From assembly GCF_000420745.1 (NCBI RefSeq), contig NZ_ATVN01000022.1, positions 1 to 51,603 of the forward strand: 51,603 nt of DNA, read 5' to 3'. The stretch comes from Pseudorhodobacter ferrugineus DSM 5888 (GTDB lineage: Bacteria; Pseudomonadota; Alphaproteobacteria; Rhodobacterales; Rhodobacteraceae). The notes below the pieces were generated by a model. The model made no database searches. It had not been told where the DNA came from and was given only the letters and a program-made list of their open reading frames with translations. Shown here in pieces: positions 2,593-14,937 of this stretch. Made by a program: the position numbers and the translations under genes. How positions within the stretch are numbered: position 1 is the first letter of the stretch; each line of letters opens with the position of its first letter.

Positions 2593-3567
2593 ATGCTAGC
2601 ATCCATCAATCAGATGATTGTCGATCAGTTGGGCCCAATGGGTCCGCTGATGGTGATCGGCGGGATCGGCCTTGTGCTTATCTTGGTGACCCTACCGGTC
2701 ATGCTCAAGAAAACGCCCGAACCGTTCGACAAGATCAAGGCCCAACGCGACGCCTACAGCACACCCACAAAACAAGGTTTGCGGATGAGCAGCAAAGGTG
2801 GGGCCAGTGACAAGCTGCAAAAATTCTCGACATTTCTGGAACCCCAGAATGCCGAAGAAATGTCCGCCTCGCGGATGAAAATGTTACGAGCAGGGTATCG
2901 CGCGAAAAATGCGGTTCAACTGTTCCACTTTGCCCAATTGGTCTTTGGCCTCGGCTTTTTGCTGATTGGCGTGGTCTACACCTTGTACGCACAGACCCAA
3001 GGCGACGTGCCCACCCATATCTTCGTTTTGTCCACCATTGGGCCAGGCGCTGCAGGCTATTACCTGCCGCAATACTGGGTTCAACGCCGCGCCCAACAAC
3101 GCACAGAGGAAATCGTTTCCGGCTTTCCTGATGCGCTGGACATGATGTTGGTCTGCGTTGAGGCTGGGCAATCGCTGGACCAATCCATCTTGCGCGTCGC
3201 CAAAGAAAGCCGCGCAGGGTATCCCGCGCTGGCCGATGAATTCGACACTGTGGCCCAAGAGGTGAAGGCTGGCAAAGAACGTGTGATGGTGTTAAAAGAT
3301 ATGTCCGAACGCGTGGGCATCGCCGATGTTTCCTCATTCGTGACAACGCTCGTGCAATCGGCCACCTTTGGTACGTCAATCGCCGAGGCCTTGCGTGTCT
3401 ATTCTGCCGAAATGCGCGATAAACGCGTCATGCGGGCGGAAGAGAAAGCAAATACCTTGCCGACCAAGCTGACCCTCGGCACAATGATGTTCACCCTTCC
3501 GCCCTTGCTGATCATTCTGATCGGGCCGTCGGTGCACGGTATTTCGAAAACACTCGGCGGGGGCTAA
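2593..3567 (+). CDS. tadC: Tad pilus inner-membrane platform protein TadC
   Basis: This is the second T2SSF-domain platform protein of the Tad apparatus. The protein has 324 residues, with a first membrane helix at about 18-37, another at about 116-136, a cytoplasmic T2SSF domain starting near FPDALDMMLVCVEAGQSLDQ, and a last helix near the C-terminus. TadB and TadC are thought to form a heteromeric base that couples CpaF ATP hydrolysis to pilin extraction. The gene starts 13 bases after tadB, with AAAGGG upstream, and is clearly co-transcribed. I see nothing unusual in length or motifs. Confidence 0.92.
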   Translation: MLASINQMIVDQLGPMGPLMVIGGIGLVLILVTLPVMLKKTPEPFDKIKAQRDAYSTPTKQGLRMSSKGGASDKLQKFSTFLEPQNAEEMSASRMKMLRAGYRAKNAVQLFHFAQLVFGLGFLLIGVVYTLYAQTQGDVPTHIFVLSTIGPGAAGYYLPQYWVQRRAQQRTEEIVSGFPDALDMMLVCVEAGQSLDQSILRVAKESRAGYPALADEFDTVAQEVKAGKERVMVLKDMSERVGIADVSSFVTTLVQSATFGTSIAEALRVYSAEMRDKRVMRAEEKANTLPTKLTLGTMMFTLPPLLIILIGPSVHGISKTLGGG

Positions 3568-3576
3568 CTGTATCAG

Positions 3577-4146
3577 ATGATAAAACGATCGCCTGTTTTG
3601 ATCGTGGCTTTGGCCCTACTGACCGGCTGTCAATCGACGGGCGGTCTTTCGGCTGCCGATAGGGCGCGCAATGCCCCTTTTGCCGCAGATGGCAGCGAAA
3701 AGGGTGTGGACGGCTTGCTCGTCGGCCACCGTTTGATGGAAGCTGGCGAACATGAGCTGGCACTGCGCGCCTATCTGCGTGCTGCGGGCGAACAAGGCAT
3801 GACGGCAGATGTGCTGTCGGCCCTTGGCTCTGCCAACCTGCGCTTGGGGCGGTTGGGCCAAGCCGAAACCTTGCTGCGCCAAGCCGTCAAGTCAGATCCC
3901 CGTTCCGTGCCCGCCCAAAACAACCTTGGCGTGGTCTTGATGGAACGCGGCAAATTGGGCGAGGCCCGCGGCGTGTTCCAACAGGCCTTTGCGCTGGATA
4001 GTGGCAGTTCAGACTCAATTCGCGAAAATCTTCGCTTGGCTATCGCCCGAAGCAATGCGGCTGTGTATGATGATCAGGCACAAAGTCACGACTTCGCCTT
4101 GGTGCGGCGGGATGCAGGGCAATATGTTCTTCTCTCGCAGCTTTAA
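3577..4146 (+). CDS. tadD: TPR lipoprotein, TadD-like
   Basis: This 189-residue protein has a lipoprotein signal (MIKRSPVLIVALALLTGC, lipid-bearing Cys18) followed by tetratricopeptide repeats at roughly residues 45-165. TadD is the pilotin-like outer-membrane lipoprotein of Tad systems, thought to help place or stabilise the secretin. Its position directly after tadC supports the call. No good Shine-Dalgarno sequence is seen close to ATG 3577, so translation may be coupled to tadC, whose stop lies 10 bases upstream. Confidence 0.85.
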   Translation: MIKRSPVLIVALALLTGCQSTGGLSAADRARNAPFAADGSEKGVDGLLVGHRLMEAGEHELALRAYLRAAGEQGMTADVLSALGSANLRLGRLGQAETLLRQAVKSDPRSVPAQNNLGVVLMERGKLGEARGVFQQAFALDSGSSDSIRENLRLAIARSNAAVYDDQAQSHDFALVRRDAGQYVLLSQL

Positions 4147-4181
4147 GGCCGAGGAAACCGAGCAGTAAAAAAGGACGCAAA

Positions 4182-5039
4182 ATGCGCCACCCTGTCTTTC
4201 TCGCGCTGTGCCTTGGCGGCACAGTTGGCCTTATGGGCTGTCAAAAAGCCTCCGATGGCGAAGTAAGCCGCGCCATGAAGTCGGTCAACGTGATTGACGA
4301 GTCAAACCTGAATGACATCATGCTGACCGTTGGCGACCCCAACGAATCCGTGGCCTATTTCCGCAAAACCGCCAATGAAAACCCTGACCGCATTGATATC
4401 AAACGCGGGTTGGCGAAATCCTTGGTCCGCGCCCAACAACCGCAAGAGGCCGCATCCGTCTGGTCCGCCGTTGTAGCCGACCCGACCGCTACCAATGATG
4501 ACCGTGTGGCCCTTGCCGATGCGCTGATCCGGTCAAACGAATGGAAGCGCGCCGAGGCCGAACTGAACAAAATTCCGCCCACACATGAAACCTTTGAACG
4601 CTACAAGCTGGAAGCGATGATCGCAGACAGCAACAAGAACTGGAAAAAAGCTGACAGTTTTTATGAAATCGCCGCTGGGCTAACCACGACGCCCGCCAGC
4701 ATCTATAACAACTGGGGCTATTCCAAGCTGACGCGCACCGATTATGCGGGCGCCGAAAAGCTGTTCTTTGACGCGCTGACCTATGATCCGCAGCTGTTCA
4801 CCGCCAAAAACAACCTTGTTCTGGCCCGTGGCGCGCAGCGCAAATATGATATCCCCGTCATCAAAATGACCCAGATCGAACGCGCGCAACTGCTGCACAC
4901 AATGGCTTTGACCGCGATCAAACAAGGCGATGTGCAGATCGGCAAAGGCCTGTTGCAAGAAGCCATCGACACCCACCCGCAGCATTTTGACGCCGCCGTG
5001 CGCTCGCTGGCTGCCCTAGATGCCAAAGTGACGAATTGA
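4182..5039 (+). CDS. Second TPR lipoprotein of the Tad locus
   Basis: This is a 285-residue lipoprotein (lipobox GLMGC, Cys20) built of several TPR units, for example around SIYNNWGYSKLTRTDYAGAE. It is longer than its neighbour at 3577 and not a simple copy of it. Many Rhodobacterales Tad loci have two consecutive TPR lipoproteins. The second is often also labelled TadD, but its separate role is not established. A strong ribosome binding site (AAAGGAC) precedes ATG 4182. The stop codon overlaps the start of the prepilin peptidase (TGATG), which suggests translational coupling. Confidence 0.82.
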   Translation: MRHPVFLALCLGGTVGLMGCQKASDGEVSRAMKSVNVIDESNLNDIMLTVGDPNESVAYFRKTANENPDRIDIKRGLAKSLVRAQQPQEAASVWSAVVADPTATNDDRVALADALIRSNEWKRAEAELNKIPPTHETFERYKLEAMIADSNKNWKKADSFYEIAAGLTTTPASIYNNWGYSKLTRTDYAGAEKLFFDALTYDPQLFTAKNNLVLARGAQRKYDIPVIKMTQIERAQLLHTMALTAIKQGDVQIGKGLLQEAIDTHPQHFDAAVRSLAALDAKVTN

Positions 5040-5530
5040 TGCTTGCTGATACGAACTCTTTACTGTGGTTTTTGCCCTTTACCGTGCCAATCGCCATTTG
5101 GGTCGCGTGGTCAGATATGAAGTTCATGAAAATCCCGAACAAGGCTGTTCTGGCCTTGCTTGCGGTTTACGTAATCATGGGCCTTTTCGTGTTTCCGCTT
5201 AAACTATGGGCGTGGGGTCTTGCCTTGGGGGCAATCGTGCTGCTGATCGGTTTTGGCGCGACTGCCGCGCGCCTTATGGGCGCAGGTGATGCCAAATTCG
5301 GTGCTGCTATGGCACCGTTCTTTGTCACCGCCGACATCCGGACCGTGCTGTTTTTGTTTGCCGCTTGTCTTTTTGCCGCGCTGACCAGCCACCGCATTGC
5401 AAAGCACAGCAGCATCATAAGGGACCGTGTGCCCGATTGGCTTAGCTGGACACACAAAGGCTTTCCGATGGGCTATCCCCTTGCTGGCCTGTTGATTTTT
5501 TATCCGCTGCTGGTCGTTTGGCTTGGCTGA
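5039..5530 (+). CDS. cpaA: Prepilin peptidase (TadV/CpaA type)
   Basis: This is an A24-family aspartic prepilin peptidase that trims Flp pilin and TadE/TadF pseudopilins at the inner membrane. The 163-residue protein is almost entirely hydrophobic. The two catalytic aspartates are visible: Asp26 in SDMKFMKIPN and Asp84 in the GAGDAK motif. It lacks the N-terminal methylase domain of PilD-type enzymes, as TadV proteins do. I chose ATG 5039, which overlaps the previous stop by one base, over the TTG three bases earlier. Likely substrates in this window are the pseudopilins at 33708 and 34313. Confidence 0.9.
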   Translation: MLADTNSLLWFLPFTVPIAIWVAWSDMKFMKIPNKAVLALLAVYVIMGLFVFPLKLWAWGLALGAIVLLIGFGATAARLMGAGDAKFGAAMAPFFVTADIRTVLFLFAACLFAALTSHRIAKHSSIIRDRVPDWLSWTHKGFPMGYPLAGLLIFYPLLVVWLG

Positions 5531-5599
5531 ACGCTGGTTCATTCTTTTGAAATGCCCTTTGGGCAATAGTGCAACCGACCATAACCATAGGTGCGCCCG

Positions 5600-6916
5600 A
5601 TGAACGTCCAGACCTTGCCGCCAAATGTCCTTGCTCCGCCCTCGTGCAAATCGCTGGCACAGGTGGGCCTGTCGTTGGTCATGATGCGGGACATTCTGCT
5701 CAAAACCATGTTCCGCACCAACCTTGATCTGACCTCCTCGATCGCCCGCGCCGTTTGCTTGCCCGTGCAATTGACGCAAGAATTGATCGACCTTGCACGC
5801 ACCCAGCGGCTGCTAGAGGCGACGGGCACCATGCACGCCACGTCCAGCGCCGAAATGGGCTATCAGCTGACCGATGCCGGTAAGGCGCGCGCTTTGGATG
5901 CGCTGTCGCAATCTGAATATTACGGCGCAATGCCGATACCGCTGGATGATTACAGGGTGCAGGTTCAACGCCAATCGGTGCGCAACATCCGCCTGACCCG
6001 TGAACAGTTGATCGGTGCTATGGGCCATCTGATCCTGCCGCCCGACTTGTTGGGCAACCTTGGCCCCGCCATTACCTCGGGGCGTTCGATCCTGATGTAT
6101 GGCCCGCCTGGTAATGGTAAGTCCTCAATTTCAAACGGTATTCGTGATGCGATGGGCGACAAGATCTATGTCCCCCGCGCGCTGGAATATGCGGGGCAGG
6201 TCATCACGGTCTATGACCCGATCGTCCATTCCGCCGCCGAAGAGGCGACCGATGACCCCAATTCCCTGCGCCGCACCTCGAACCGTTTTGACAACCGCTA
6301 TGTCTACTGCGAACGGCCAACGGTGATCACCGGCGGTGAACTGTCGCTGGATATGTTGGATTTGACCTATAATCCCGTCGCGCGCACCTATCAGGCGCCC
6401 TTGCAGCTTAAATCCACGGGCGGCATCTTTATCGTGGACGACCTTGGCCGTCAGGCCGAACCCCCGCAAAAGCTGGTCAACCGCTGGATCGTTCCGCTGG
6501 AAGAGGCGAAGGATATCCTTGCCTTGCAGTCGGGCGAAAAGTTCACCGTGCCATTTGATACGCTGGTCATCTTTTCGACTAACTTCCACCCGAATGAGAT
6601 TTTTGACGGCGCGGCCCTGCGGCGTATCTTTTTCAAAATCAAAATCGACGGGCCCGATCAGCAAAACTTTCTTAAAATTTTCGCGATGGTCGCACGGGCG
6701 AAAAAGATGCCCTTGGATGAACCCACTTTGGTGCATCTGATGAAGGTGAAGTTCCCCACGATCCAGAATAACTATGCCAACTATATGCCGAAATTCCTGA
6801 TCGAACAGATGATGGCGGTGTGCGACTTTGAAAACCAACCCTATCACATGTCGCCCGATCTGATTGACCGCGCATGGGGCAACATGTTCGTGAAACAAGA
6901 AAAGATCGCGCATTGA
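5600..6916 (+). CDS. AAA+ ATPase linked to the Tad locus
   Basis: This 438-residue soluble protein contains an AAA+ module. Walker A GPPGNGKS is at about 168-175 and Walker B IFIVDD at about 276-281, with a sensor-1-like FSTNF stretch further on. The first 150 residues look like a separate adaptor or DNA/protein-binding region rather than membrane. The start at ATG 5600 is preferred because AGGTG lies six bases before it; GTG 5591 is the alternative. It follows the prepilin peptidase by about 70 bases. I recognise it as a protein that travels with Tad genes in Rhodobacterales, but its biochemical role is unknown to me. It could act in remodelling or regulation of the pilus machine. Confidence 0.75.
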   Translation: MNVQTLPPNVLAPPSCKSLAQVGLSLVMMRDILLKTMFRTNLDLTSSIARAVCLPVQLTQELIDLARTQRLLEATGTMHATSSAEMGYQLTDAGKARALDALSQSEYYGAMPIPLDDYRVQVQRQSVRNIRLTREQLIGAMGHLILPPDLLGNLGPAITSGRSILMYGPPGNGKSSISNGIRDAMGDKIYVPRALEYAGQVITVYDPIVHSAAEEATDDPNSLRRTSNRFDNRYVYCERPTVITGGELSLDMLDLTYNPVARTYQAPLQLKSTGGIFIVDDLGRQAEPPQKLVNRWIVPLEEAKDILALQSGEKFTVPFDTLVIFSTNFHPNEIFDGAALRRIFFKIKIDGPDQQNFLKIFAMVARAKKMPLDEPTLVHLMKVKFPTIQNNYANYMPKFLIEQMMAVCDFENQPYHMSPDLIDRAWGNMFVKQEKIAH

Positions 6917-10362: not shown

Positions 10363-10391
10363 CTTTTTTTCCACTAAAATATCCCCGGGGG
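10363..10391 (+). repeat. Gene-end motif, copy 1
   Basis: The stretch after guaD reads CCGCTTTTTTTCC, then AAAATATCCCCGGGGG. A closely similar motif, in the same orientation relative to the preceding gene, follows the M20 amidohydrolase at 23219-23246. Such pyrimidine tract plus AAATATCCC-GGG sequences recur at gene ends in Rhodobacterales. The role is unknown and may involve transcript 3' ends. Confidence 0.45.
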
Positions 10392-10397
10392 AAATTG

Positions 10398-10402
10398 GCC
10401 TT
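10398..10402 (+). repeat. Target-site duplication, left copy
   Basis: GCCTT directly precedes the terminal TG of the Mu-like element and recurs at 14584-14588 directly after its terminal CA. Five bases is the duplication length made by Mu. Confidence 0.8.
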
Positions 10403-10497
10403 TGACGGCGTTCAGAAGGTTTGACAGTGAGCAAAAATAAAGTCAAATAAAATCAGATAGTTGCAAGGCTTAAATTTCACAAGGTTTGATAGTGTTT
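10403..10497 (+). promoter_or_regulatory. Left transposase-binding end
   Basis: Two copies of AAGGTTTGAYAGTG lie at 10416-10429 and 10481-10494, about 65 bases apart and in the same orientation. The first sits 13 bases inside the left tip. Related copies in inverted orientation occur at the right end. This layout matches the MuA binding sites of Mu (attL). Confidence 0.7.
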
Positions 10498-10609
10498 TAA
10501 GGTTTTGGGCCTGATATCGGCTAGTGCAGAATTGCTTGTCAAGAATTTATCTAATGAAATCAATGGGCCTTATATTTAGGTGTGGGGCGAATACCCCACA
10601 CCCCATCCA

Positions 10610-11101
10610 TTAAACTTGGGAGATTTTGAGGGCGTTCAAGATTTCTAGGTCTCTTGCGGTGGCCGCTTCCCCAGCCTCAATATCATCATGAATCAGGAGA
10701 GCAAAGGCTGTATCCATAACTCCCGTTTGATCGTCGATTTTGAGTGCCAAGTCCTTTTGAGCTTGCCGCATCAATAGCCAGAAACCAGCATGCTTGTTGA
10801 ACTGCATGTAGACTTCACCGTAACTGGTTCCTTGGGCCGCAAGCCCTTTGGCCTTTGCGAACCTGAATAGCGCAAGCCGAAAAGCAAACTCCTCATACTG
10901 TCCCCACTTAATTGGCGGGGTTAGAACGGTTTGATGGCTTTCACCTTTCAGAATAGCCAAATAGCGCTCAGGAACATTGCCGCGATTGCGCCATGACGAA
11001 ACGGTGCTCTTGTCCACTGTTAATGCGCGGGCGAGATCAACGTCAGTTTCGACACCCAGCTTCTTTTTCAGTTCATCAATCAAATTTGCAGTCTTGTCCA
11101 T
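10610..11101 (-). CDS. Phage CI-type repressor
   Basis: This 163-residue protein has an N-terminal helix-turn-helix of the phage CI repressor type. Helix positions are about 20-51, with DVDLARALTVDKSTVSSWRN as the core. A C-terminal part of unknown fold follows, probably for oligomerisation. ATG 11101 is chosen because AAGGAAAG precedes it; the open frame runs 22 codons further upstream but into the operator region. It is transcribed divergently from the ner-like gene, as the Mu c repressor is. By analogy it should keep the early promoter silent and give immunity against related phages. The gene is intact, so this function may be active. Confidence 0.82.
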   Translation of the reverse strand: MDKTANLIDELKKKLGVETDVDLARALTVDKSTVSSWRNRGNVPERYLAILKGESHQTVLTPPIKWGQYEEFAFRLALFRFAKAKGLAAQGTSYGEVYMQFNKHAGFWLLMRQAQKDLALKIDDQTGVMDTAFALLIHDDIEAGEAATARDLEILNALKISQV

Positions 11102-11173
11102 TTTCTTTCCTTGACAGCTATATGCAGTTTGCATAGTTTGCATGTAAACACAAAACGGAAAGTGCAAACCTCA
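11102..11173. promoter_or_regulatory. Operator and early promoter of the Mu-like element
   Basis: Between the divergent repressor and ner genes lies a perfect tandem 9-bp repeat, AGTTTGCAT twice at 11126-11143, and an inverted partial copy GTGCAAAC at 11162-11169. A rightward promoter can be read as TTGACA (11111-11116), a 17-base spacer and TAGTTT (11134-11139). The repeats overlap its -10 box, so a protein bound there would block early transcription. Confidence 0.65.
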
Positions 11174-11374
11174 ATGGACTATACCCCATCTAAGCAAACT
11201 CTGAAAGAGGTTCGGGTACGCCTTTTAATGAGGGGTCTTTCGTTCGCGGGATATTGTCGTGAGCAGGGTTTAATTCGTCAAAACCTTGCCGCTGCCATTA
11301 CGGGAAAGCTGACAGCCCCTAAAGCTGAAGCAATGTTTCAATCGGTGCTAATGGACTCGGGGATGAAAGCGTAA
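11174..11374 (+). CDS. Ner/Cro-like small DNA-binding protein
   Basis: This 66-residue basic protein lies in the position of Mu ner, directly right of the operator and divergent from the repressor. The stretch SFAGYCREQGLIRQNLAAAITG reads as a small helix-turn-helix. Mu Ner negatively regulates the early promoter and the repressor gene, and the same job is inferred here from position. ATG 11174 is preferred over the upstream GTG-type starts in the operator. Its stop overlaps the start of the next gene (TAATG), which suggests coupling. Confidence 0.65.
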   Translation: MDYTPSKQTLKEVRVRLLMRGLSFAGYCREQGLIRQNLAAAITGKLTAPKAEAMFQSVLMDSGMKA

Positions 11375-12372
11375 TGTACATTTATGTCTACAAACTCAAA
11401 GGCTTAGAGGGTGTGCCGAATGACAGGACGGCTATCTCTGCATGGTTGAGTCGGCATTCGATAACTGCGGTCAAGCACGGGCATAGATTTGTTGTCAACC
11501 TTTCCGACCTTCCGGCCCCTGTTCGCCTTGCCTATGTGGAGCGCGAAATTGAGGCGGCGGGCCTGTTTGGCGGCACCTATGACGAGGAAGCCCACACCAA
11601 TTTTATGAAGATGACGCCTGCGATGCGGGACGGGGCCGAGAGGAAGGCCGAGATCGCGCGGTTTCTGCTATCGGTGGGCAAGCTTCTGCCTTGGTCCCAA
11701 AAGATTGCCTTGGCGCGTAAGACGTTTGGCGAGAGTGGCACGTCTGAACCCTCTATAGCGCGCATTTTAAAGGCCGTTAAAGGGGTGGACCCTGTCAACT
11801 TTGCCCCGGCTTTGTTGGCCGACTATACGCTGCAAGGCGCGCCCAAAGCGGCGGTTTCGGACGAGGCTTGGTCCTTTTTCATGACAACCCTGCGGGATGC
11901 AGGGACACGGTTTCCGCTTAAACAAGCGTGGCGCGATGTGCGCGACCTCAAGGCAGTGAAGGGGTGGGATTGGCCGTCTTTTGAGACAATCAACCGCCGC
12001 TGGCACGGCCTGACAGAAGCGCAGCGCCTTCATGCGCGGCATGGTCATGAAGCCACGGTAAGGGCCGCGCGCGGTGCCAGCGCTGACGTGACACTCACCT
12101 TGACCGAGCATGAGGTGAACCAAGCCGAAGTTGCCATGGGTGAAGTTGAACACCTTTTCATTCAAGCGGCGCGCGTTTTTGAGCTTTTGCATACCGGAAT
12201 CGTCGCCGGGCATTTGGACCCAGAAGGGTCAGGAACCTTGGCCGTCTTGGACTTGGCAAAGCGCGCGATGATGAGCGCGGCGGAACATGAAGGCGAAGCC
12301 GTTTCACATCTTGCCCAGAAACTTCGCAAAGCCAAATCCTACCAGCACCCTAAAGAGGAGCAAGCCGCATGA
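11374..12372 (+). CDS. Mu-type transposase A, DNA-binding half only, with an unrelated tail
   Basis: Residues 1-220 resemble the DNA-binding region of MuA-type transposases. A short HTH/domain-I-like start (AWLSRHSITAVKHGHRFVVNL) leads to helical domains up to GWDWPSFETINRRWHGLT, the usual domain I-gamma end. In MuA homologues the DDE catalytic core (rve) and the C-terminal MuB-binding domain follow, giving about 650-700 residues. Here the protein continues instead with about 110 helical residues with no DDE signature and stops at 332. The change is in frame. It could be a deletion joint between transposase A and another early gene. The product should bind the element ends but cannot cut DNA. 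Its stop overlaps the gemA start by 4 bases. Confidence 0.75.
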   Translation: MYIYVYKLKGLEGVPNDRTAISAWLSRHSITAVKHGHRFVVNLSDLPAPVRLAYVEREIEAAGLFGGTYDEEAHTNFMKMTPAMRDGAERKAEIARFLLSVGKLLPWSQKIALARKTFGESGTSEPSIARILKAVKGVDPVNFAPALLADYTLQGAPKAAVSDEAWSFFMTTLRDAGTRFPLKQAWRDVRDLKAVKGWDWPSFETINRRWHGLTEAQRLHARHGHEATVRAARGASADVTLTLTEHEVNQAEVAMGEVEHLFIQAARVFELLHTGIVAGHLDPEGSGTLAVLDLAKRAMMSAAEHEGEAVSHLAQKLRKAKSYQHPKEEQAA

Positions 12373-12782
12373 CTATTTCAGCGCGCCAAATCGGTTTCAT
12401 CAAGGTTGCCGTCAAAAAGCTGGGGTGGGATGATGAAACCTACCGTTCTGCCTTGGCCCAGATTGGTGGCGTTACCACGTCAACCGATTTGGATAAGGCA
12501 GGGTTTGAAGCTCTTGTAGGCTTCTTTGAATATTGCGGGTTCAAGCCCATGGAAGCAAAGGGGCCAGCTTATGGGCCGCGCCCCGGCATGGCGAGCTTTG
12601 CCCAGATTGAATTGATCCGCAATCTTTGGGCCGAATACACCCATACTGCTTATCCGGGGCAAGACGAGCTCAACAAGTGGCTTGAGCGTTGTTTCAAGGT
12701 GTCCAGCCTGCGCTTTTTGAAAAAGGATACCGCGCCAAAGGTTATCACGGCCTTGAAAGCCATGAGGACCCGCGCGGCCTGA
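12369..12782 (+). CDS. gemA: GemA/Gp16-family phage protein
   Basis: This 137-residue protein resembles the Mu Gp16/GemA family (DUF1018). The start TISARQIGFIKVAVKKLGWDD fits, as do the central ASFAQIELIRNLWAEY and the C-terminal FLKKDTAPKVITALKAM segments. In Mu, GemA is an early protein reported to modulate host gene expression and DNA supercoiling; its exact role is not settled. The length is close to normal and the frame is clean. It overlaps the preceding gene (ATGA), so it is expressed from the same early transcript, which ends at the hairpin just downstream. Confidence 0.82.
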   Translation: MTISARQIGFIKVAVKKLGWDDETYRSALAQIGGVTTSTDLDKAGFEALVGFFEYCGFKPMEAKGPAYGPRPGMASFAQIELIRNLWAEYTHTAYPGQDELNKWLERCFKVSSLRFLKKDTAPKVITALKAMRTRAA

Positions 12783-12804
12783 CAATGTGCTGCAAACGGC
12801 AAAA

Positions 12805-12831
12805 GGGCGGCGCGATTGTGCCGCCCTTTTT
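12805..12831 (+). terminator. Rho-independent terminator after gemA
   Basis: A perfect 7-bp stem (GGGCGGC / GCCGCCC) with an 8-base loop is followed by TTTTT. It closes the ner-transposase-gemA early transcript. Confidence 0.85.
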
Positions 12832-13035
12832 CATTGCCCTGAATTTTGCCCGTAGGGGCGGCTTGCAGCGCTTCGGCCCCCATGACCCTATAAAAATTGA
12901 TCAACCCGTTTAAATTCGCCGCATAACCGTTTAAAAATCGAATTGGCTGCATCGCCTGCCACCCCAAAACAATATTGCTGGAATTTTCGGCCCTAATTGC
13001 GCTAGGCTGGTGAAGGGCGGCGCAAGTTGCCCGTT

Positions 13036-13109
13036 GCGCGGTGTATCCCGATTGGTAAGGGAGCTTTTCTTCGGAACACTTGATGTTGGTTCGAGTCCAG
13101 CCCCGTGCA
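13036..13109 (+). other. tRNA-like sequence, probably a decayed phage tRNA
   Basis: This 74-base stretch can be laid out as a tRNA. The T-arm is canonical (GTTGG, loop TTCGAGT, CCAGC) and contains an exact B-box GGTTCGAGTCC. The acceptor pairs GCGCGGT with CCCGTGC at 6 of 7 positions. The D-arm is TCCC, a loop containing GATTGGTAA, then GGGA. The 22-base middle is the normal size and would put TCG (Arg) as anticodon in the loop CTTCGGA, but the anticodon stem pairs at only two of five positions. There are three bases instead of two between acceptor and D-arm. It is therefore more likely a pseudo-tRNA or a tRNA mimic than a working tRNA. Confidence 0.5.
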
Positions 13110-13273
13110 GCTGACAGGCAAACACCGTCGCATTCATAGTGCGAAGCGAATCGGGCGTAAGGGTGGGGCCTGTCACCCGCAAACGCTTGTGGGTAATTTG
13201 GCTTTTCCCGCAATGTTACACCTTTTCCCAGAGATGGCGCGATTGCGCTTCACCCCGGAAAAGGTTCCCTTCA

Positions 13274-13669
13274 ATGATCATTAACGCCCAAACTCTTGAC
13301 CTGGCATTCAAAGGATTCAAGTCAGTCTACAGCGATGCGCACCTACCCATGGACGCGGTGGCCGAGCTGCTCGAAGATCGCAATGGCCGAATTGCCTTGA
13401 TGAACGAGCAAGCGGCGGGGGCTATGGTCCAGAAGGCCTTTGATGACGGCTATCTGACGCCTGCAATGCGCGGCTGGGCAACGGCCCTTGCAAGTCAAGA
13501 CCCTGACAGCTTCAAAGCGTTTTTGGGAACTGCCCCGCGCCCGTTCTCGCACTTGCTGACGCCAATGCCACGCCCCCTTTCCGCCGTGGCCGCGCAAAAT
13601 GACGACTCGGATGAGGCGGCGGCAATTTGCGCCCAGCTTGGCCTTAAGCCCGGCTCTCTCAATTCTTGA
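13274..13669 (+). CDS. Mu-like head-gene fragment (possible gpT/gpI chimera)
   Basis: This is a 131-residue protein from ATG 13274. The first 20 or so residues (MIINAQTLDLAFKGFKSVY) resemble the start of the Mu-type major head protein gpT. The rest, with KAFDDGYLTPAMRGWATALA and the closing EAAAICAQLGLKPGS, resembles the C-terminus of the Mu-type protease/scaffold gpI. In Mu the order is I then T, so a simple deletion would give the opposite fusion. The frame is open and the codon use is like its neighbours. Function is unknown; it might be debris or might interfere with head assembly of a related phage. Both resemblances are judged by eye and are modest. Confidence 0.45.
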   Translation: MIINAQTLDLAFKGFKSVYSDAHLPMDAVAELLEDRNGRIALMNEQAAGAMVQKAFDDGYLTPAMRGWATALASQDPDSFKAFLGTAPRPFSHLLTPMPRPLSAVAAQNDDSDEAAAICAQLGLKPGSLNS

Positions 13670-13736
13670 GGTTGGGGCGGGGGGTGATTGCCCTGCCCTC
13701 AAGCCGCGTGTTCTCTCCTGATCGCGCGGCAAACAG

Positions 13737-13770
13737 CGCCCCGGCCTATGATCGCCTCTAGGCCGGGGCG
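13737..13770 (+). terminator. Strong hairpin, probable terminator
   Basis: A perfect 12-bp stem (CGCCCCGGCCTA and its complement) encloses a 10-base loop and is followed by TTATT. It separates the head-gene fragment from the mor pseudogene. Confidence 0.65.
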
Positions 13771-13797
13771 TTATTCGACACACTTGGAAAGGCTGCC

Positions 13798-14160
13798 ATG
13801 AACCTACCCGCCGCCCCAATGCCAAAGCCCACGGCCCAAGTGGCCGTCTATGTCGATGTGCTGGGCGCTGACCTTGCCGTGACGTTTCTTTTGACGTTCG
13901 GCGGTGCCGAACTCCACCTTGCCCATAATCCACGCGGGCAAGGGCAAGTCGAAGCCGTGGTTGGTTTAGAGAAGGCCCGCGCCCTTGCGGCCTAAGACCA
14001 TCGGTTGCAGCGCCGCGTTCCGCTTGCAAAAAGATGGCTTGCCCAAATGCTCAATTGGCAAGGCCATTCCACCGCCCACATTGCCCGCACCTTGCGCACT
14101 ACGGACGTGTCAGTGCGCGGAATGCTACGGGTGAAACAGGAGGACGGCCCGAATGACTGA
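13798..14160 (+). pseudogene. Mor-family transcription activator with an internal stop
   Basis: The frame starting at ATG 13798 encodes a Mor-type (Mu middle-operon activator) protein. The N-terminal dimerisation part contains VLGADLAVTFLLTFGGAEL. A TAA at 13993-13995 stops it after 65 residues. In the same frame the next 54 codons read as the expected C-terminal helix-turn-helix (for example RRVPLAKRWLAQML and TAHIARTLRTTDVSVRG) and end at TGA 14158-14160. One base change such as CAA to TAA explains the interruption. The truncated product would dimerise but lack the DNA-binding domain. The following gene starts inside its last codons (ATGACTGA), a normal phage-type overlap that supports the longer original gene. 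Confidence 0.78.
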
Positions 14161-14512
14161 CATCCGCACGGCCCTTGTCCAAGCACGGCAAACCGCCCAA
14201 ATATTGGACGGCGCAAAGGCTGCAAATGTCCGCCTTTTAACGACCCTTGAAGGGGTGGTTGAAGCTCCGTTTAACGACACTTCATTGGCCGCCCGGCACC
14301 GCGCCGAGCACCGTATGGGCGTCCCGTCTCGCCTTAATACAGACACCGAATTGCAGGCCTTCGTTCTCGACCGAATTGAACGGATGACCTATAAACAGGT
14401 CGTTGCCGAGGTTGCAAAAACCTTCCCGCCAGATCGTCAAACCAGCATTTCTGCGGTGCAACGATGGTGGCGAAAACGCGCGCCGCAATCGCCAAAGGCC
14501 AGACGTTCCTAG
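14153..14512 (+). CDS. Small HTH-containing phage protein
   Basis: This 119-residue basic protein overlaps the end of the mor frame. The C-terminal half (from about residue 62) contains a helix-turn-helix-like stretch, MTYKQVVAEVAKTFPPDRQ followed by SISAVQRWWRKR, resembling resolvase-type or small-terminase-type HTH folds. I do not recognise a specific family. Its position after mor and immediately before the right end of the element shows that it belongs to the Mu-like remnant. A regulatory or DNA-packaging role is possible but not shown. Confidence 0.6.
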   Translation: MTDIRTALVQARQTAQILDGAKAANVRLLTTLEGVVEAPFNDTSLAARHRAEHRMGVPSRLNTDTELQAFVLDRIERMTYKQVVAEVAKTFPPDRQTSISAVQRWWRKRAPQSPKARRS

Positions 14513-14534
14513 CAAATCCCGATAATAGCGGGCC

Positions 14535-14583
14535 GCTGTCAGACCTTTTGCCTTGGTACTATCGTTTGTTGTGAACACTAACA
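14535..14583 (-). promoter_or_regulatory. Right transposase-binding end
   Basis: Read on the minus strand from the tip at 14583, the sequence gives a first site GTTCACAACAAACGATAGTA (14557-14576) and a second AAAGGTCTGACAGCG (14535-14549). Both match the left-end motif and are inverted relative to it, as expected for attR of a Mu-like element. Confidence 0.65.
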
Positions 14584-14588
14584 GCCTT
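14584..14588 (+). repeat. Target-site duplication, right copy
   Basis: GCCTT follows the terminal CA of the Mu-like element and matches 10398-10402. Confidence 0.8.
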
Positions 14589-14616
14589 CAGGCCAAGGGG
14601 GGCAGCGCCCCGTCCC

Positions 14617-14937
14617 CTACTCCACCAATTCCCACCCATCCGGATCAAAGCCGAACTTCAGCGCAATCTCGGTTGCCCGCTTTTCCTCTGCCCAAATGGC
14701 TGCGGCCGAAATCTCCATCTCGCCTGTCCGCGCCTCCAGCGTCTCGCCGTCCTCATCCTGCCGCGTCACAAATCCCGCTGCTTTCAGCGCCTTTTCAGCG
14801 GCCGCAAACGGAGCGTCCACCTCGTCGGCCAGAAACAGAAAGTTCACCACGGCGCGTTTGGGCAAGCTGTCAATTTTGCCAATCTCGGCAAAGGTGTCAA
14901 AGGTTTCGGCCTGCTGCGCCTTGTAATCATGGGTCAT
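14617..14937 (-). CDS. rraB: RraB-family RNase E regulator
   Basis: This is a small acidic protein (106 residues) of the RraB family, whose E. coli member binds RNase E and lowers its activity, changing mRNA turnover. The conserved blocks VVNFLFLADEVDAPFAAAEKAL, split by an E/D-rich linker from EISAAAIWAEEKRATEIA and the closing FDPDGWELVE, are present. ATG 14937 has AGGAG about five bases upstream and is preferred over the longer frame. It lies directly downstream of the 8-oxoguanine deaminase gene on the same strand, about 60 bases away, so they may share a transcript. Confidence 0.85.
   Translation of the reverse strand: MTHDYKAQQAETFDTFAEIGKIDSLPKRAVVNFLFLADEVDAPFAAAEKALKAAGFVTRQDEDGETLEARTGEMEISAAAIWAEEKRATEIALKFGFDPDGWELVE

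Follow-up and report, generated by a model that had tools for sequence, protein, structure and literature searches.

Is the 4.2-kb Mu-like element in the genome of Pseudorhodobacter ferrugineus DSM 5888 the remnant of a full prophage, or does it belong to a family of small elements in its own right? The element lies in a stretch of 51,603 nucleotides (contig NZ_ATVN01000022.1, positions 1 to 51,603), hereafter the window. A previous examination of the letters alone (the sequence-only reading) had proposed either a deletion derivative or a true satellite. The deletion derivative holds for the window copy, whereas the satellite idea fits the family of this copy, which itself appears to be a disabled derivative. 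With a probability of about two in three, we consider the window element an internally deleted, non-autonomous copy of a compact (~8 kb), capsid-carrying element of Mu type, for which we infer transfer as a satellite. The odds seem even for the broader proposal that the family consists of Mu-type satellites that have their own capsid, protease/scaffold and small-terminase-like protein, transpose into hairpins and shed smaller derivatives moved in trans. The family is a strong candidate for a class of Mu-type, capsid-carrying phage satellites. Genomes and loci are referred to by our G and L numbers where needed; the window genome is G000.

Borders and Insertion Site of the Element

The element is 4181 bp long, has TG...CA termini and is bounded by GCCTT direct repeats. 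Phage Mu makes a 5-bp target duplication, and the window copy shares both this feature and the ends with Mu-type transposable elements. The termini agree at 15 of 28 positions when inverted, which is found for 0.8% of random TG/CA pairs in the window, a 5-bp repeat not yet being required. The sequence-only reading had described these repeats and ends correctly, and its Mu-type insertion with a 5-bp duplication and both ends kept is confirmed. It had also described two internal motifs on each side. The two left ones were found again, both with the MuA-site-like motif AAGGTTTGA, together with one inverted right one (AAGGTCTGA); the terminal right-hand site is degenerate in the window copy and nearer to the left site in relative L018.

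10367-10402: left half of the target, a gene-end hairpin repeat whose stem TTGGCC/GGCCAA is divided by the insertion
10398-10402: left target duplication GCCTT, present once in the empty site of G006, a sister species
10403-14583: element, 4181 bp, TG...CA
10403-10495, plus strand: left end with two MuA-site-like motifs (10416 and 10481), supported by the left ends of relatives
14536-14583, minus strand: right end with the reversed MuA-site-like motif (14539) and the degenerate terminal site
14584-14588: right target duplication GCCTT
14589-14620: right half of the target, same hairpin repeat

The upstream gene was matched in all nine genus genomes searched (weakly in G002 and G007), and the element is present at none of the orthologous places inspected in six congeners (G001, G003, G004, G005, G006, and G008). 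The empty site of G006 reads CGCCTTCAGGCG with one GCCTT and joins at the place that the sequence-only reading had predicted. A short hairpin occurs at the site in G006, G001 and G003, with stem letters that co-vary between the species. The stem is TTGGCC/GGCCAA in both G001 (TTGGCC-GCAA-GGCCAA) and the joined window flanks (TTGGCC-TTCA-GGCCAA), GCGCC/GGCGC in G003 (TGCGCC-ATCA-GGCGCA) and CGCC/GGCG in G006. The G008 site has a different, longer hairpin, no such hairpin was seen at the G004 site, and the orthologous place in G005 holds other DNA. The element is inserted inside a gene-end hairpin.

Gene Content of the Window Copy

From left to right, the element encodes a repressor on the minus strand, a ner-like gene, a 332-aa frame, gemA, a 131-aa frame, a Mor-like gene with a stop codon and a 119-aa protein that we call X. 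Profile searches confirmed the repressor, ner-like gene and gemA named by the sequence-only reading, which had overlooked both fusions (MuA end-binding and T/I), the break in the Mor gene and the final helix-turn-helix (HTH) gene.

10610-11167, minus strand: repressor with CI-type HTH (PF07022, 2.3e-05; phrog_4441, 7.4e-09)
11174-11374, plus strand: ner-like small HTH gene, assigned by position (phrog_15281 of unknown function, 5.1e-06; phrog_925, HTH DNA binding, 0.016)
11374-12372, plus strand: end-binding part of MuA (PF09039, 3.4e-05) fused in frame to the C-terminal ~100 residues encoded by the small gene before gemA
12369-12782, plus strand: gemA (PF06252, 4.8e-25)
13274-13669, plus strand: first 22 aa of the major head protein T fused in frame to the C-terminal ~108 aa of protease I (PF10123 profile positions 221-325, 1.6e-11)
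13798-14160, plus strand: Mor-like late activator with an in-frame TAA at 13993-13995 (phrog_836, 1.2e-07 in the first half and 0.0044 in the second)
14153-14512, plus strand: X, 119 aa, with an N-terminal helix and a C-terminal HTH and, in this copy, no small-terminase-like signal

The repressor probably starts at the ATG near 11101, giving a protein of about 163 aa. In the 332-aa frame, the MuA part spans approximately residues 1-235 and contains the I-gamma domain; the profile search found no DDE catalytic core in this frame. MuA frames of relatives measure ~645-760 aa, and the second part of the fusion is there a separate frame of 130-194 aa directly before gemA. The halves of the 131-aa frame likewise map to two separate, adjacent genes, T followed by I. 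Since their parts are separate genes in relatives, both frames are in-frame deletion fusions. The I fragment would represent the scaffold region, judging from the annotated start of Mu Z. Two earlier interpretations of this region were dropped: the position of I before Mor and X, taken for a rearrangement, proved to be the usual gene order of the family, and 13274-13669 was read as I alone until its first 22 aa were recognized as the start of T.

The window copy has lost the MuA catalytic core, MuB (both present in relatives), almost the whole of T and the first part of I. It has kept the ends, the repressor, the end-binding domain of MuA, gemA, the scaffold-region fragment and X, and is disabled in transposition and in Mor. 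There is one copy in its own genome, which by the test of the sequence-only reading points to deletion or decay, and the Mor stop agrees. Several copies with the same internal deletion, as expected for a miniature inverted-repeat transposable element (MITE), were not found; other small copies have other deletions. Deposited phages yielded no match to the window MuA fusion. No tRNA was called in the window, and Rfam gave two weak matches far under the gathering scores. A T-arm-like motif (GGTTCGAGTCC) was seen by eye at 13060-13130, between gemA and the T start, where there is neither a tRNA call nor an Rfam match.

Compact Relatives in Other Genera

Among 394 family genomes, the MuA fragment matched in 20 and X in 36 (E ≤ 0.01; 31 at ≤ 1e-7). 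Fourteen relatives have perfect 5-bp duplications and a length of 7.5-8.9 kb, except for one with an insert (G418, 10.8 kb).

G385, 8173 bp; G386, 7951 bp; G271, 8892 bp; G191, 8301 bp; G067, 7952 bp
G063, 8621 bp; G131, 8263 bp; G414, 8527 bp; G419, 8272 bp; G418, 10815 bp
Roseobacter sp. HKCCD6576-2, 7496 bp; metagenome-assembled genome (MAG) HLUCCA12, 8128 bp; UBA6213, 8488 bp; Rhodobacter capsulatus SP108, 8551 bp

The ten elements of numbered genomes come from ten different genera, none of which is the genus of the window. Named hosts include Sediminimonas qiaohouensis DSM 21189 (L153, 9006-16956), Primorskyibacter aestuariivivens, Maritimibacter fusiformis and Ruegeria sp. PrR005, in addition to Roseobacter sp. 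HKCCD6576-2 and R. capsulatus SP108 (L175, 8990-17540). Paracoccus sp. DMF-8 has a deleted copy of 6.8 kb. In ten of the 14 elements, A, B, gemA, T and I are all represented by one match apiece that contains no stop and covers at least 90% of the query; MuA and MuB are unbroken in 12. The G418 insert is 2.6 kb long and splits MuA (L059, MuA region ~3465-6043). Residues D255, D320 and E375, assigned as the catalytic DDE by motif, are invariant in five aligned MuA proteins. Profiles on the G063 element identified MuA with DDE_2, MuB, a virion structural (cement) protein, T (PF10124, 1.6e-119), a Mor-like protein and X without a family; I was assigned to PF10123 by profile from G386, and gemA by similarity.

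The ends of these longer relatives correspond to those of the window copy, and none was found with its ends elsewhere. X adjoins the right end in the window copy, L018 and L013, and apparent host genes were seen by eye beyond the right ends of the G385 and G386 loci. The sequence-only reading had supposed shrinkage from a full Mu-like phage. This was not borne out: the complete relatives are already compact and have T and I, in some cases with a cement or neck protein, as their only late structural genes. These relatives rule out decay of a full phage as the sole explanation of the family, and by the same comparison the window element is apparently not the stump of such a phage.

Smaller two-ended derivatives occur as well. 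Four of them retain X, together with the start of MuA in G003 (3572 bp) and G067b (2590 bp) and with a middle section of MuA in a Lentibacter MAG (3854 bp) and G395b (1224 bp); among these four, the Lentibacter copy is the only one with a clean 5-bp duplication. In G098 (loci L176-L187), there are nine X matches and five MuA matches. Several of the copies are 93-97% alike, and some have in common an additional piece of gemA within the T region; this points to amplification. Similarity between copy pairs stops mostly at or within ~15 bases of the predicted right end (in the pair L177/L182 it continues ~160 bases past it). The insertion sites differ between copies, nearly all with their own duplication.

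Three further copies, L158 (1687-9919), G205 (L088) and G067b (L085), have good ends and flanks that share no 5 bp, yet adjoin arms of the same hairpin-repeat kind, perhaps owing to inversion or recombination between copies. Contigs L158, L162 and L163, labeled Verrucomicrobiales, Burkholderiaceae and Hyphomicrobiales, hold the element or parts of it; they are metagenome bins whose label may be wrong. Plasmid records gave a 63% piece in Paracoccus pantotrophus (NZ_CP044425) and nine other matches below 60%.

Lineage of the Capsid Genes

We compared 39 of the 56 annotated genes of the Rhodobacter phage RC1 with the 14 elements. T and I matched in all 14, a Mor-like HTH protein in eight, and the cement and virion morphogenesis proteins in two each, with no other matches; the portal, large-terminase (TerL) and tail proteins of RC1 found no match, while lysis genes were not searched for separately. 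In the control phage loci (five of seven fetched, two short ones omitted), the portal, TerL and F were matched in five of five and the other late proteins in one to five. The RC1 protein matched in eight elements, taken for gemA by its place, turned out to be an HTH protein in a domain search and was counted as Mor-like; its eight elements are those with a Mor match. Two elements, those of G191 and G414, encode a protein related to the virion morphogenesis protein of RC1 (PF05069); hence the late-gene content varies within the family.

In the T tree, 21 element loci lie on one side of a branch (93/94) that separates them from the T of 23 full phages, and a core of 19 rows has 100/98. Two rows with a stop in T were kept (X at the stop) and T matches shorter than ~240 aa were omitted. 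The order of both genes is I-T in RC1, Mu, and JBD25 but T-I in the elements. Among viral contigs, seven of element type combine a T at least 60% identical to that of the S. qiaohouensis copy with the T-I order; the other 19 have a T of at most 51% identity, with I before T in the 17 where I was seen. MuA matched one locus among the viral contigs. Because the element T forms one lineage with the T-I order, repeated independent shrinkage of phages is not readily expected. The family has its own conserved lineage, is smaller than a helper and lacks part of the virion genes, as satellites do.

Copies Within the Genus

A DNA search of 61 genomes gave matches in four, all in the genus and including the window genome itself. 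The related copies of the three congeners (G003, G005, and G008) occupy other sites. The G003 copy (L018, 1596-5167) has the same element end positions and other internal deletions than the window copy, and its flanks share TTG without a clean 5-bp duplication. In G005 and G008, the left and right ends are located on separate contigs with flanks sharing GAGGC and GCGGC, respectively, and each pair probably represents one insertion. Over the left 1445 bp, the window and G005 copies show 17 differences (98.8% identity) at different sites, while the G005 flank is ordinary genus DNA with 73-78% identity in long matches to relatives. This disparity indicates that the element has recently moved between species, and the lineage of the window element was thus mobile until recently.

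Target Choice

Nine of 21 insertions with clean duplications lie within 3 bp of the center of a stem with at least six net base pairs, against 1.91 expected from control positions 15-60 bp from the sites (0/10000 draws). At a tolerance of 1 bp, there are three sites (0.78 expected, p = 0.039), at 2 bp five (1.36, p = 0.0083) and at 4 bp ten (2.45, 0/10000 draws). The set comprises 20 sites and the R. capsulatus site added to them (15 in the first version), those of G005 and G008 each being joined from two contigs; copies without a clean duplication (L018, G205, L158, G067b, G072, G210, and others) were excluded. The G005 flank ends in a dispersed gene-end repeat, and several targets are repeats of this type. 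The G/C-rich repeat ending this flank (L017, ~1957-1994) recurs widely in six of the nine genus genomes as a dispersed landing-site repeat.

A similar attraction of Mu-type insertion to palindromic repeats (repetitive extragenic palindromic, REP, and bacterial interspersed mosaic elements, BIME) is described in the available text on the Pseudomonas Mu-like phage Ab30, whose hotspots adjoin REP-like palindromes and whose authors raise the possibility that some transposable phages are attracted by hairpins (PMC5977238). In Ab30, a conserved palindromic motif is located 55-61 bp from the hotspots according to the same text, whereas the elements have their duplication in or at the hairpin (PMC5977238).

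Proposed Transfer and Alternative Explanations

According to our preferred explanation, complete elements would transpose on their own within a cell by means of MuA and MuB, preferentially capturing targets at gene-end hairpins, and would pass between cells as satellites of a Mu-like helper phage. The element would supply its own shell (T and I), the helper the portal, terminase motor, tail and lysis, and X may be the packaging recognition of the element itself. A Mu-like helper would be the simplest supplier because transfer needs a portal, motor and tail, for which the elements show no match. In the window copy, deletions have produced the two in-frame fusions, and Mor is broken by a stop codon. 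As its ends are kept but MuA catalysis is lost, this copy could at most be mobilized by a complete relative acting in trans. Portal genes in G001 and G003 are located on contigs that also carry a long MuA-like frame, and full Mu-like phages thus seem to exist in the genus of the window.

Several results weigh against this explanation. A Mu-type portal gene was found in six of the 19 carrier genomes searched, leaving 13 without a match. Its enrichment in carriers is modest (9/31 vs 41/363, p = 0.009, with a carrier cut-off chosen afterwards) and smaller still under another carrier definition (5/19 vs 45/375, p = 0.08). The small-terminase signal of X is weak: phrog_426 gives at best 0.0025, in three of eight members and not in the window copy, and an hhalign comparison with Mu-type small terminases is colinear with a probability of 3.6% (P = 0.0038), after removal of 11 of 39 rows as duplicate, broken or chimeric. 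Searches of PDB and BFVD with the fold of X, which is predicted with confidence chiefly for the HTH part, gave nothing significant. Similarity searches detected X in 12 of the 14 elements (the other two were matched by a separate X search) and Mor in eight, and one further element has a Mor-type protein. Damage is seen in four of the 14: I contains a stop in G063 and T does so in G131, both A and I are split in G419, and A is interrupted in G418. The branch uniting the element T (93/94) was recovered in 92% of bootstrap trees, and the nine genomes searched of the window's own genus yielded neither a complete element MuA nor a complete copy. Packaging, induction and dependence on a helper are predictions for the family.

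The missing portal in most carrier genomes would suit autonomous capsid-carrying transposons, which use T and I for an intracellular shell or for transfer by gene transfer agents and need no Mu-like helper. The intact MuA and MuB of most complete elements and the many copies inside G098 fit this idea as well. We nevertheless regard it as unlikely, since the Mor-like activator and the protease/scaffold belong to the late stage of phage development and portal genes are somewhat enriched in carriers. In addition, some genomes elsewhere hold such hitchers without their helper, according to the accessible part of a satellite survey (PMC11389934). Quite unlikely, too, is a history without any satellite family, in which a single full-length Mu-like prophage inserted and then simply decayed through internal deletion. 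The single copy in G000, the fusions, the Mor stop and the frequency of deletion derivatives in the family are what such decay would leave; however, many genera have relatives with perfect duplications that are themselves compact and miss the same late genes, their T belongs to one clade with a reversed gene order, and X adjoins the right end in three loci. The 4.2-kb form could finally be a selected second-order parasite, moved in trans, whose MuA fragment competes for ends and whose T/I fragment interferes with capsids. In favor of this, the two fusions are both open and in frame, and there are other small two-ended derivatives. This is very improbable given that the window form was not found with the same deletion at two different sites, that Mor is broken and that 1.2% divergence from G005 leaves little time for visible selection.

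Relation to Known Systems and Significance

The elements resemble RC1 (Rhodobacter), RS1 (Rhodovulum) and Mu in their MuA/MuB transposition, in T and I and, by a match to RC1, in the Mor-like HTH protein. They differ in having ~8 kb instead of the 39 kb of Mu-like phages, with no portal, TerL or tail match. Element T is 48% identical to that of RC1 and RS1 and below 60% to all 215 phage records matched, and element MuA is at most ~31% identical in the 25 phage records listed out of 161. Internally deleted Mu derivatives such as Mini-Mu keep both ends and have a deleted interior. The window copy is similar, but its parent would be a compact element and not a phage, and it is natural rather than engineered.

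Capsid-forming phage-inducible chromosomal islands (cfPICIs) are likewise satellite-sized and encode their own capsid protein. They use integrases and carry portal and terminases together with the capsid, whereas the elements have a DDE transposase and no portal or TerL match. P4-like satellites, phage-inducible chromosomal islands (PICI), PICI-like elements (PLE), phage-inducible chromosomal minimalist islands (PICMI), virion-encapsidated integrative mobile elements (VEIME) and tycheposons share the reduced set of phage-derived genes, regulators and possible packaging genes, as far as the accessible text goes (PMC11389934), and differ from the elements in that the latter integrate by a DDE transposase. 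A Mu-type family is not among the satellite families named in that part of the survey (PMC11389934). The novel part would be a satellite family of Mu type, of which we found no description in the literature searched, most subscription papers lying outside it.

If this explanation is true, a satellite that transposes like Mu could spread within a genome while its helper does likewise. Packaging of Mu type takes host DNA at both ends, as stated in the available Ab30 text (PMC5977238), and would carry host DNA along with the satellite. An 8-kb genome with T and I but no portal raises the question of whose particle holds the shell and of what size it is, and the hairpin preference offers a natural system for MuA/MuB target choice. 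One carrier is a strain of R. capsulatus, a species used in the laboratory, and the Rhodobacteraceae, in which such satellites may move, matter for marine carbon and sulfur cycling, according to the part of the source at hand (PMC8224337).

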